From Desulfurococcales archaeon (GTDB taxonomy: Archaea; Thermoproteota; Thermoprotei_A; Sulfolobales; Desulfurococcaceae), in the NCBI GenBank assembly GCA_027022365.1, contig JALVYU010000030.1:1-64000 (forward strand): a stretch of DNA of 64,000 bases. The letters are read 5' to 3'. Under the pieces are notes generated by a model. The model was not told the origin of the DNA and made no database searches. It saw nothing but the letters and a program-made list of their open reading frames with translations. How positions within the stretch are numbered: the first letter of the stretch is position 1; the number at the start of each line of letters is the position of its first letter. This document shows positions 47,184 to 51,234 of the stretch, piece after piece. Made by a program: the position numbers and the translations under genes.

Positions 47184-47329
47184 CAATACCTTGTTATAAG
47201 GTCATGGATTAGCTCTGGCCACGGCTGATATTAGGTGATCTAACCCTCTGCGGGAATATCAATTTCTATCTAATAGTCTTTAGTTGATGAAGGCCGCCTC
47301 GTCTCTATTCAATCCATTATATTAAAACA

Positions 47330-47341
47330 TTATAATATATA
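47330..47341 (+). promoter_or_regulatory. TATA-like box of the molybdenum hydroxylase operon
   Basis: TTATAATATATA would start transcription near 47361, giving a leader of about 35 bases that holds GAGGTGA at 47383-47389 just before the ATC at 47396. Confidence 0.5.
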
Positions 47342-47395
47342 TTCTACTATGATTCTTAGAATATGTTAGATTAGTTCTCGCCGAGGTGAACCAGC

Positions 47396-48283
47396 ATCGC
47401 AAAATTCAGTCTATACAGGCCGAAAAGCCTAGATGACGCCCTGGAATTCCTTAGCAACAATGCTGGCCTTGTGAAGCCCCTGGCGGGCGGCACCGAGCTA
47501 CTACTCCTGATCCGGGACAAGAAGATCCCTACACCAAAGTACCTGCTAGACCTGAACGCCATAAGGAAAGAGCTGAGCTACGTAAAGCTCGAAGAAGACA
47601 AAGTGAGGATAGGCGCGGCCACAACACTCTATGAGCTGAGCCAATCCATTCTCCATAAGGATAAGAGGTATGCCGGCTTCGTCGACGTATTCTACGGCTT
47701 CGCAACCATGGCTATGAGATTCTACGCGACGATAGGTGGAAACATATTATCCGCCACACAATACAATGACTACCTTACACTCCTCACAGTCTATGAACCG
47801 GAACTAGTGTTGGTCAGCAAGGAGGGGGAGAGGAGATTAACGCTCGAACAACTAGTCTTAGACAAGCGTAAACTAGCCATAAAGCCTGACGAGCTCCTCA
47901 AAGAGATCATAATCCCTGTCCCGCCGGAGAACACCAGTAGTAGCTTCATGAAATTCGACCGAAGGAGAATACTGATCGCCGGCGTGGTCACCGGCGCGGT
48001 TCTCCTAACACTCAATGATAACGTGATTGAGGACGTCAAGATATCCTTTGACATGATACGGGAGAAACGCGTACCGGGACGCGCAAAGAAGACAGAGGAG
48101 TTCCTGCGAGGCAAAGAGCTCAGCGAAGAAGTGGTCGAGGAAGCAGCGGAGAAGATCTTGCCCAGCGAGATGGAGAGAGTATCAGACTGGTGGACGACGG
48201 CGGAGTACAGGCTAGACATGTCCAAGGTTGTTTTAAAGCGCAACATATTCCGCGCCGCGAGAAGGATAAGGGGTGGGAAGTGA
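47396..48283 (+). CDS. Molybdenum hydroxylase, FAD subunit, with probable AUC start
   Basis: FAD-binding medium subunit of a xanthine dehydrogenase/aldehyde oxidoreductase type enzyme, about 295 residues. The family's N-terminal FSLYRPKSLDDALEFLSN is followed by the FAD motif LAGGTELL. Between the in-frame TGA at 47387 and GTG 47471 there is no ATG, GTG or TTG, yet the conserved N-terminus is encoded from 47396. There the codon is ATC, six bases after GGTGA (47385-47389), as in normal starts of this genome. A start at GTG 47471 would cut off the conserved first strand. Its TGA overlaps the next ATG by one base. Confidence 0.8.
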   Translation: MAKFSLYRPKSLDDALEFLSNNAGLVKPLAGGTELLLLIRDKKIPTPKYLLDLNAIRKELSYVKLEEDKVRIGAATTLYELSQSILHKDKRYAGFVDVFYGFATMAMRFYATIGGNILSATQYNDYLTLLTVYEPELVLVSKEGERRLTLEQLVLDKRKLAIKPDELLKEIIIPVPPENTSSSFMKFDRRRILIAGVVTGAVLLTLNDNVIEDVKISFDMIREKRVPGRAKKTEEFLRGKELSEEVVEEAAEKILPSEMERVSDWWTTAEYRLDMSKVVLKRNIFRAARRIRGGK

Positions 48284-48822
48284 TGGTCGAAACAATACGT
48301 GTAAACTTAAAGGTTAATGGGAAACAATACGTACTCGACATACCGCCGGACGAGAGACTCATAGACACACTACGCTACAGGCTGGGATTCACGAGCGTCA
48401 AAGAGGGATGTGGACGAGGCGAGTGTGGATCATGTATTGTACTCGTCAACGGCCTTCCGAGGCACAGCTGTCTAACACTGACAGCGACACTGGATGGCGC
48501 GGAAATACTCACGGTCGAAGGACTGGCTCCCGAGGGCAAACTACACGCTATACAGGTAGCGTTCCTCGAGACGCGTGGAGTGCAGTGCGGGTTCTGTACT
48601 CCGGCCTTCATGCTTCTGACTAAGGCTCTCCTCGACAAGACCCTCGATCCCAGCGACGAGGAGATCAAGCAGTGGCTGGCCAGCGCTATCTGCCGCTGTG
48701 GAAGCTACCACTACTACTTCAAGGCCGTCAGGAAGGCTGCCGAGTACTTGAAGAAGGGCAAGATATTGTTTGACGAAAAAGAAGTTAGGAAGAACCTCTA
48801 CAAGCTCCCCCTCCTGAGGTGA
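48283..48822 (+). CDS. Molybdenum hydroxylase, [2Fe-2S] subunit
   Basis: Small iron-sulfur subunit, 179 residues, with two [2Fe-2S] domains. The plant-ferredoxin-like cluster uses Cys43, Cys48, Cys51 and Cys63 (CGRGECGSC), and the helical domain uses Cys102, Cys105, Cys137 and Cys139 (CGFC and CRCGSY). It carries electrons from the molybdenum subunit to FAD. It lies between the FAD and molybdenum genes with one-base and six-base junctions, so all three are made together. ATG 48283 follows GGGTGGGAAG. Confidence 0.92.
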   Translation: MVETIRVNLKVNGKQYVLDIPPDERLIDTLRYRLGFTSVKEGCGRGECGSCIVLVNGLPRHSCLTLTATLDGAEILTVEGLAPEGKLHAIQVAFLETRGVQCGFCTPAFMLLTKALLDKTLDPSDEEIKQWLASAICRCGSYHYYFKAVRKAAEYLKKGKILFDEKEVRKNLYKLPLLR

Positions 48823-48828
48823 TAATGT

Positions 48829-51234
48829 ATGTCTAAGCCCGAATACGTCGAAATAGTTGAGAAGGTCTTCGACAAGACAAGGTCTAAGCCTACCAAGGAG
48901 TTCAAGTACATTGGTAAAGAGATACTGAGATGGGATGCGATCTCGAAAATACGTGGCGAGAAAATATTCGTTGCCGACCTGATAAACTTGTTCAAGAACC
49001 CGGTATTTGTATACAGTGTGAGGACAAAATACGCCCACGCAAGGATAAAGAAGATCGATGTCAGTGAGGCCGAGAAATACCCCGGCGTAATCAAAGTGCT
49101 AACCTATAAGGACATACCCGGCATAAACGATGTAGGATACGTAATACCGGATCAGCCCCTCCTCGCGGACAAAAAGGTGAGATACATAGGAGACACGGTG
49201 GCCCTAGTAATAGCCGAGAGCCTCGAGAACGCCCGTGACGCGGGAGAACTCGTCAACGTGGAGTACGAGCCCCTAGAAGTAATCCTTGACCCCCTAAAGA
49301 TCGTTGAATGGGGAGGCCTGAGGGAGAAAGAACACACACTCATACATGATGAGCGCGGATCAGATGTAGTATCAAGATATAAGATCAGGGCTGGAGACAT
49401 AAAGAAGGCTGAACAAGAGGCAGCAGTAGTCATAGAGAACGAGTATAGGACCCCGATGCAGGAGCACGCCTACATAGAGACCGAGGCGGCAATAGCGATA
49501 CCCGAGCCGAACGGAGGAGTAACGATCTACGCTAAAACACAGTGCCCATTTGACACACGCAGAGCCGTGGCACAAGTGCTCGGCCTACCCTTCAACATGG
49601 TTAGAGTGATAGCCCCCAGCCTCGGAGGAGGATTTGGCGGTGCAGAAGACGTCGGCAACGAAATAGCGGCCAAGGCAGCCCTAGCAGCACTGGTTACGAA
49701 GAGGCCGGCAGTAGTACTGTTCACAAGAGAAGAAAGTATCATAGGCCACGCGAAAAGGCACCCGATGATAGCCAGGTATAAGCACATGGCGGCCAGAGAC
49801 GGGACCCTCCTAGGAGTAGAAGCAGAGATCATACTCGACACCGGAGCATATGCTAGCCTAGGCCCGTTCGTCGGATGGAGAGCAATAGTACACAGCACAG
49901 GACCCTACAGGGTAAAGAACGCCAAGATAGACCTAGCAGTAGTCTACACCAACAAGGTATACGCGGGAGCATTCCGTGGATTCGGCAACCCACAGGTATC
50001 ATTCGCGGTCGAGAGACAAATGGATCTGCTTGCCGAGGAGCTAGGGATAGACCCTGTCGAGATAAGGCTGAAGAACGCGCTCCGCAACGGAGACCGGACA
50101 GTCCACGGCCAGCTCCTAGACCACGGCGTAGGCCTCGTTGAGGCGATACAGAAAGCGGTCGAGGCCGCCAACTGGTACGAGAAGAGGAAGCTATACGCTA
50201 ACCAGAAAGGCCTTCTGAGGAGAGGAATAGGCATAGCGGTAATGTACCACGGCAACAGCATAGGTGCCGAGGGAGCAGACTTCAGCAGCGCCACCATCAT
50301 AATACAGCGCGACGGAAGCATAATCTTCAGGACGGGCCTGACGGACTTCGGCCAGGGAGCTATACAGGGTATAGTCAACATAATAGCCGAGACACTGGGA
50401 GTACCGCCAACATACATCAAGGTAGAATGGCCCGACACCGCCGCAACGCCCGATGCAGGCCCGACGGTGGCGTCTAGATCAACGGTCATGGGCGGTAACG
50501 CGGCCCTAGTAGCAGCATACAGGCTGAGGCAGAGGCTGAACAGGCTGGCCTCGGAGCTCCTAGGATGTGATCCCGAGAAAATAGTGATTGATGCACCAGA
50601 TGTCTACTGCTCCGATGACCCAGAGAACAAGATAACATGGCAGGAACTAGTAGAGCAGAGCTTCTGGAAAGGCGTGCCGCTACAGGAGTTCGGGTACTTC
50701 AGAGCACCACCGGCAGAATGGGATGAGGAGACCGGGCAGGGAGCACCATACATGCACTACACGTTCGGAGCTATCATAAGCGATGTAGAACTAGACATGG
50801 AGACAGGAGTAGTTAGGGTTAAAGAAGCGGTGACAGCCTACGATATAGGCCGCCTCATAAACAAGACAGGAGCAGACCTGCACGCTATAGGAGGCTATAT
50901 CCAGGGAATGGGCTACGCTCTCATGGAGGACCTATACTATTCGCCCGACGGCAAAGTCTATAATGTCAGCCTATCAACATACCACGTACCAACAGCGCTG
51001 GACATACCTGAAAAGATAACGCCAATATGGGTAGAAGCAGGATTCAGGAGGGGGCCCTACGGCGCGAAAGGATTGGGAGAGCCATCAATCGTAGCGATAG
51101 CGCCAAGCATAGCTAACGCAGTAGCCCATGCACTGGGCGGCGGAGTACAGGTTAGCAAAGACGTGAACAAAATACCGCTAACACCCGACTATATCTACAG
51201 CATAATAAAGAAGTATAAGCTACTCGGAAAGTAG
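48829..51234 (+). CDS. Molybdenum hydroxylase, molybdopterin subunit
   Basis: Large catalytic subunit, 801 residues. Molybdopterin sites are LGGGFGGAED near 268 and GAFRGFGNPQ near 380; the base that starts the reaction is probably Glu751 in GLGEPS. The AYxCSFR loop with the Cu-Mo Cys of aerobic CO dehydrogenase is absent, so it is not a CO dehydrogenase. Aldehyde oxidation (as glyceraldehyde oxidoreductase) or purine or xanthine hydroxylation are the options. No XdhC-type maturation gene is seen in the window. GGTGAT is six bases before ATG 48829. Confidence 0.92.
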   Translation: MSKPEYVEIVEKVFDKTRSKPTKEFKYIGKEILRWDAISKIRGEKIFVADLINLFKNPVFVYSVRTKYAHARIKKIDVSEAEKYPGVIKVLTYKDIPGINDVGYVIPDQPLLADKKVRYIGDTVALVIAESLENARDAGELVNVEYEPLEVILDPLKIVEWGGLREKEHTLIHDERGSDVVSRYKIRAGDIKKAEQEAAVVIENEYRTPMQEHAYIETEAAIAIPEPNGGVTIYAKTQCPFDTRRAVAQVLGLPFNMVRVIAPSLGGGFGGAEDVGNEIAAKAALAALVTKRPAVVLFTREESIIGHAKRHPMIARYKHMAARDGTLLGVEAEIILDTGAYASLGPFVGWRAIVHSTGPYRVKNAKIDLAVVYTNKVYAGAFRGFGNPQVSFAVERQMDLLAEELGIDPVEIRLKNALRNGDRTVHGQLLDHGVGLVEAIQKAVEAANWYEKRKLYANQKGLLRRGIGIAVMYHGNSIGAEGADFSSATIIIQRDGSIIFRTGLTDFGQGAIQGIVNIIAETLGVPPTYIKVEWPDTAATPDAGPTVASRSTVMGGNAALVAAYRLRQRLNRLASELLGCDPEKIVIDAPDVYCSDDPENKITWQELVEQSFWKGVPLQEFGYFRAPPAEWDEETGQGAPYMHYTFGAIISDVELDMETGVVRVKEAVTAYDIGRLINKTGADLHAIGGYIQGMGYALMEDLYYSPDGKVYNVSLSTYHVPTALDIPEKITPIWVEAGFRRGPYGAKGLGEPSIVAIAPSIANAVAHALGGGVQVSKDVNKIPLTPDYIYSIIKKYKLLGK

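Follow-up and report, generated by a model that had tools for sequence, protein, structure and literature searches.

The gene for the FAD-binding subunit of a molybdenum hydroxylase in the window, a stretch of 64,000 nucleotides from a Desulfurococcales archaeon, very probably starts at the AUC codon at position 47396, where a Shine-Dalgarno sequence would direct initiation by the ordinary initiator tRNA; we take this start to be stable in the lineage and its weakness to be probably selected. The position of the start codon is strongly supported, without protein or ribosome-profiling data. The feature is lineage-wide and common to ribosomal stalk protein P1 (aL12), and is wider than stated in an earlier note on this DNA, which had dealt with the FAD subunit.

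The FAD-subunit frame opens without a canonical start codon

Reading the frame of the FAD subunit codon by codon, we found no ATG, GTG or TTG between the in-frame TGA at 47387 and the GTG at 47471, exactly as the earlier note had claimed. The TGA is followed by ACC AGC ATC GCA AAA TTC AGT CTA TAC AGG CCG AAA AGC CTA, in which ATC occupies positions 47396-47398 of the plus strand, and then by GAT GAC GCC CTG GAA TTC CTT AGC AAC AAT GCT GGC CTT GTG, in which CTG lies at 47441 and GTG at 47471-47473 (plus strand). The ATC, which we infer to be the start, is the first conserved codon and stands, again as claimed, six bases downstream of GGTGA (47385-47389). This pentamer belongs to the Shine-Dalgarno sequence GAGGTGA (47383-47389, plus strand), whose last three bases form the in-frame stop, and both motif and spacing are kept in nearly all relatives. 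An A+T-rich, TATA-box-like region at 47320-47346 (plus strand; TATTAAAACATTATAATATATATTC), conserved in the sister species, is the inferred promoter region of the operon.

From the ATC, the gene extends on the plus strand to 48283 (stop TGA at 48281-48283) and encodes 295 amino acids of an FAD-binding subunit of the aldehyde/glyceraldehyde/CO-dehydrogenase type. Membership in this family was met by a PF00941 match above the curated cut-off (E=5.7e-36; 123.8 bits versus 27) together with adjoining genes for the 2Fe-2S and molybdenum subunits, these neighbours being identified by motif reading; the best NCBIfam model, glyceraldDH_beta, scored under its own cut-off. The FAD_binding_5 protein is present in a single copy, in an operon with the order FAD subunit, 2Fe-2S subunit, molybdopterin subunit. 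The 2Fe-2S gene (48283-48822, plus strand) has an ordinary start, in contrast to the ATC in the same operon: the FAD stop and this ATG overlap in the sequence TGATG, and a separate GGTG lies seven bases upstream. Because of this overlap in the window's genome, the FAD start could, by inference, also influence the 2Fe-2S subunit. The molybdopterin-binding large subunit (48829-51234, plus strand; 801 amino acids, ATG start) was taken from the list of open reading frames and identified by motif reading, without a family-library scan.

Relatives carry near-cognate codons at the same site

The earlier note had proposed a search of close relatives, and this search found the ATC and its leader to be identical in the sister species, with ATA, ATC or ATT (collectively ATH) at the site in most others without a canonical alternative. 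The closest relative, G004 (MAG contig JALWQP010000036.1), shares 96% protein identity and reads GAGGTGA-ACCAGC-ATC-GCA; identity between the two species reaches 97.5% over the 40 bases that precede the start, compared with 70-93% in blocks further upstream. In 16 of the 27 FAD genes, that of the window among them, the frame contains no ATG, GTG or TTG ahead of the conserved N-terminal residues. The start site was ATC in L002, L003 and L016, ATA in L004, L005, L010-L012, L018 and L021-L023, and ATT in L006 and L007. In L008 and L009, which we take to be Staphylothermus, the site was TTA, a third-base variant of TTG, again without an in-frame ATG, GTG or TTG. In-frame stops lie just upstream of the site in most of the relatives with ATH or TTA. 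In one gene, L019, GAGGTGA is likewise followed by six bases and then by ATG, which anchors the alignment of the start site. About 10 of the 27 genes have a potentially usable in-frame GTG, ATG or TTG at the site or a few codons before it and are ambiguous or ordinary. On the FAD protein tree, the differing third bases were scattered over several branches.

Ribosomal stalk protein P1 appears to have the same kind of start

We screened 607 reciprocal-best ortholog pairs between the window's genome and the relative G021 for genes in which conserved residues lie ahead of the earliest canonical start available. Roughly half of the window's genome was covered, together with this one complete relative, and overlap filtering was applied. 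Only two real genes lacked a canonical start in both genomes, namely the FAD subunit and P1. The other matches were rRNA shadows, antisense frames or genes with doubtful ends and were discarded.

The P1 gene of the window's genome lies outside the window (G000:C26:286943-286623, minus strand; family loci L180-L209) and reads GGGGTGA GGAGCG ATC GAG TAC ATC, giving I-E-Y-I-Y-A compared with M-E-Y-I-Y-A in other archaea. Residue 2 aligns with profile position 2 of the NCBIfam model TIGR03685, indicating that the isoleucine codon occupies the position of Met1. At model position 1, the 30 family genomes had ATC (16), ATA (12) or ATG (2). No in-frame canonical start existed at all in 21 of the 28 ATH genes, and the remaining 7 had a potentially usable in-frame GTG, ATG or TTG at the site or a few codons before it; GGTG 6-7 nt upstream of the ATH codon was typical. 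A consensus fold of the P1 leader gave no conserved RNA structure.

Pattern searches in 214 genomes of the order found P1 genes with ATH and a normally spaced GGTG in families f1, f4, f5, f9 and f10 and in one genus of f3, and ATG, with a few GTG, in f2, f7, f8 and f11 and in the remaining f3 genomes. A phylum-wide search added further ATH cases outside the order, in f12, f16, f33, f48 and f57, most of which are ambiguous in that the ribosome site contains a GTG in the frame of the gene. The case for P1 is stronger than that for the FAD subunit. Three sequence-level criteria for a near-cognate start of the infC kind, namely the lack of a canonical in-frame start (in the window, in 16 of 27 FAD genes and in 21 of 28 P1 genes), a normal distance from the ribosome site and a conserved position, were fulfilled.

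Canonical codons prevail elsewhere in the genome

Across 0.9 Mb of the window's genome and the complete G021 genome, ATG, TTG and GTG stood out as the commonest codons 6-7 bases past GGTG, which agrees with the earlier description of GGTGA as this genome's usual ribosome site at its usual distance. ATA, ATC and ATT showed no enrichment after ribosome sites in the same sequences, remaining at background level apart from a handful of genes. A genome-wide relaxation of start usage was rejected on the ordinary codons found after ribosome sites in these sequences. A tRNA scan, partial for the window's genome, yielded no candidate for a special initiator tRNA and only the ordinary Met(CAU) and Ile(GAU) species for AUN codons.

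Two further genes are unusual in single genomes. The Tsr3/DUF367 gene of G021 (C1, near 1148831, minus strand) has ATC 7 nt past GGTG without a canonical start, and its orthologue in the window's genome has ATG. The gene for the PCNA sliding clamp (G000:C26:359129, plus strand) has an apparent CTG start after GGAGGTGATGA; the G021 orthologue has TTG.

Alternative readings of the start region

The alternative that retains most weight, though we judge it improbable, is that translation starts at an out-of-frame ATG, GTG or TTG beside the Shine-Dalgarno sequence and enters the main frame by a +1 shift within the first codons. Such a codon stands exactly 7 nt before the P1 ATH, abutting GGTG, in 17 of 28 genes (for example, L197) compared with a background of 19/194 (9.8%), a bias that is large even though the species are not independent, and several FAD genes are alike in this respect. 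The family's aRF1, moreover, apparently uses a real +1 shift. Nevertheless, the out-of-frame codon abuts GGTG without a spacer, so that the ribosome site could not serve it, and the supposed shift point has neither a shared slippery codon nor a shared stop. The codon is also absent from the window gene and its genus, from g16, f5 and f10 and from several f9 genomes; there, the sole remaining candidate is the GTG within the Shine-Dalgarno sequence. For P1, the lack of a spacer, the lack of a common slippery codon and the absence from several genera together make a +1 shift unlikely; in the FAD leaders of the relatives, we found no RF2-like arrangement, in which a start with a ribosome site is followed by a slippery codon at a stop.

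The aRF1 gene had been flagged in one genome by the ortholog screen and lies outside the window (G000:C26:216801-216833, minus strand; compare, for example, G021:C1:1020498-1020530). The gene opens, in 31 of 40 family genomes, with ATG or GTG, one codon, CTT or TTT, TAG and then C or T, and its remainder lies in the +1 frame. In genes with AGY as the second codon, a TGA just upstream closes the coding frame, so that no in-frame canonical start is available. GGTG precedes the ATG or GTG by 6-8 bases in most genomes matched by the pattern search. Judging from the arrangement of the frames, translation of aRF1 in this family appears to shift into the +1 frame at the gene's own UAG. The CTT-TAG-C of aRF1 mirrors the site of bacterial RF2 (CTT_TGA_C; consensus YTT_TRA_C, PMC3711429) and the release-factor site CUU UAG C of Mimivirus (PMC3521657); such autoregulation of release factors has been stated to be absent from archaeal homologues (PMC3521657).

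We consider it very unlikely that the FAD subunit starts further down, at the GTG at 47471 or the CTG at 47441, with the conserved upstream codons untranslated. The GTG is the first canonical codon in the frame; however, neither it nor the CTG, which lies within the conserved region, has a ribosome site. The FAD_binding_5 match begins at 47402 with profile position 2 of 170; counted from the ATC, the conserved domain thus starts with residue 3. In the solved homologue 4zoh_B (CO dehydrogenase medium chain), chain residue 5 aligns to the same residue 3 of the query (E=2.4e-30), so that a start at 47471 would cut into the fold. These alignments support the earlier claim that the conserved N-terminus is encoded from 47396. 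The 25 codons that would be lost show protein-level conservation in about 27 genes, form part of the FAD domain from Pfam position 2 onward and are present in the solved homologues. Compared with the sister species, 4 of these codons differ synonymously and 1 non-synonymously (32 and 11, respectively, in the 271 codons of the rest of the gene), indicating that the stretch evolves as coding sequence. The earlier note had likewise put the loss at about 25 conserved residues for this start.

Equally slight is the chance that the AUH codon is the start but is decoded by an Ile-tRNA, and hence as isoleucine, instead of by initiator Met-tRNA. AUH encodes isoleucine, and its third base seldom turns to G; against this, certain species, and entire sister families, have ATG in place of ATH with nothing else changed, and Staphylothermus has TTA. 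We know of no archaeal initiation with Ile-tRNA.

Finally, a recent mutation or sequencing error that turned ATG into ATC in this assembly, for which it can be said that the two codons differ by one base, is already refuted by the relatives: the independently assembled sister species has the identical ATC although its coding sequence differs elsewhere, and others have ATA or ATT. The earlier note had offered two options; its truly non-standard start is therefore supported, and its mutation of ATG to ATC is rejected. The note had named relatives with ATG combined with a sequencing error here as grounds for refutation; one distant relative, L019, does have ATG, but the sequencing error did not hold.

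A proposed mechanism for initiation at AUC

Under the reading we favor, initiation at AUC 47396 by the ordinary initiator tRNA, the strong Shine-Dalgarno sequence GAGGUGA would set the small ribosomal subunit with AUC in the P site. The initiator Met-tRNA (anticodon CAU) would then pair with the first two bases, and we infer that a mismatch at a third base A, C or U is tolerated. The recurrence of AUA, AUC or AUU (or UUA) at the FAD start in most Desulfurococcaceae-like relatives, and likewise of AUA or AUC in P1, would make this a stable lineage feature, in which near-cognate codons likely set or regulate output. The position of the codon, the lack of alternatives and the conservation were observed directly; methionine as the first residue, the reduced strength of the start and its regulatory purpose are inferred.

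Close species swap A, C and T at the third base and seldom gain G, even though ATG is one mutation away and works in some species. This pattern points to selection for a start weaker than AUG but does not prove it. A codon conserved for isoleucine would likewise vary only within ATH, and the lack of G among the third-base changes therefore cannot by itself demonstrate that a weak start is selected. In addition, the TTA of Staphylothermus fits the near-cognate rule more poorly, and P1 is presumably highly expressed, which is odd beside a deliberately weak start.

In Sulfolobus, aIF1 discriminates against non-canonical start codons (PMC6237735), and AUH starts should accordingly be sensitive to initiation fidelity. 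By analogy, it is conceivable, if doubtful, that the AUH starts of P1 and the FAD subunit were selected as a stringency-sensing control, with output following initiation fidelity as set by aIF1 and related factors. If true, the dose of the stalk and the oxidoreductase operon would be tied to the accuracy of initiation, comparable to the AUU of bacterial IF3.

Comparison with known systems

Direct protein evidence is missing; the results nonetheless point to conserved AUH starts in at least two genes over a group of archaeal families, kin to known near-cognate starts such as the AUU of infC. Archaeal start codons are taken to be AUG, GUG and UUG, a rule largely enforced by annotation pipelines, and P1 and the FAD subunit are consequently likely to be truncated or missing in the annotations of the whole group of families. 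Literature searches, limited to open-access papers, gave no earlier description of AUH starts in the P1 or molybdenum-hydroxylase genes of archaea. Species with AUA, AUC, AUU, UUA and AUG at one site offer a natural comparative system for archaeal initiation fidelity and its possible regulatory use.

Relative to other molybdenum hydroxylase FAD subunits (CO dehydrogenase medium chain; 4zoh_B), the protein has the full domain and shares the order FAD, 2Fe-2S, Mo; the start codon alone is unusual. In bacteria, infC, the gene for IF3, starts at AUU, and further AUA, AUC and AUU starts exist. The AUU of infC serves feedback in that IF3 rejects such starts. The archaeal starts resemble those of the infC type in the third-base mismatch to the initiator tRNA, the strong ribosome site and the evolutionary conservation. 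They differ in being archaeal and in belonging to a metabolic enzyme subunit and a stalk protein rather than to an initiation-factor gene, and a feedback loop has not been shown. With canonical archaeal Shine-Dalgarno initiation, in which aIF1 takes part in start selection (PMC6237735), they have GAGGTGA at its usual spacing in common, whereas the start codon itself is one that such discrimination disfavors and yet is kept over many species.
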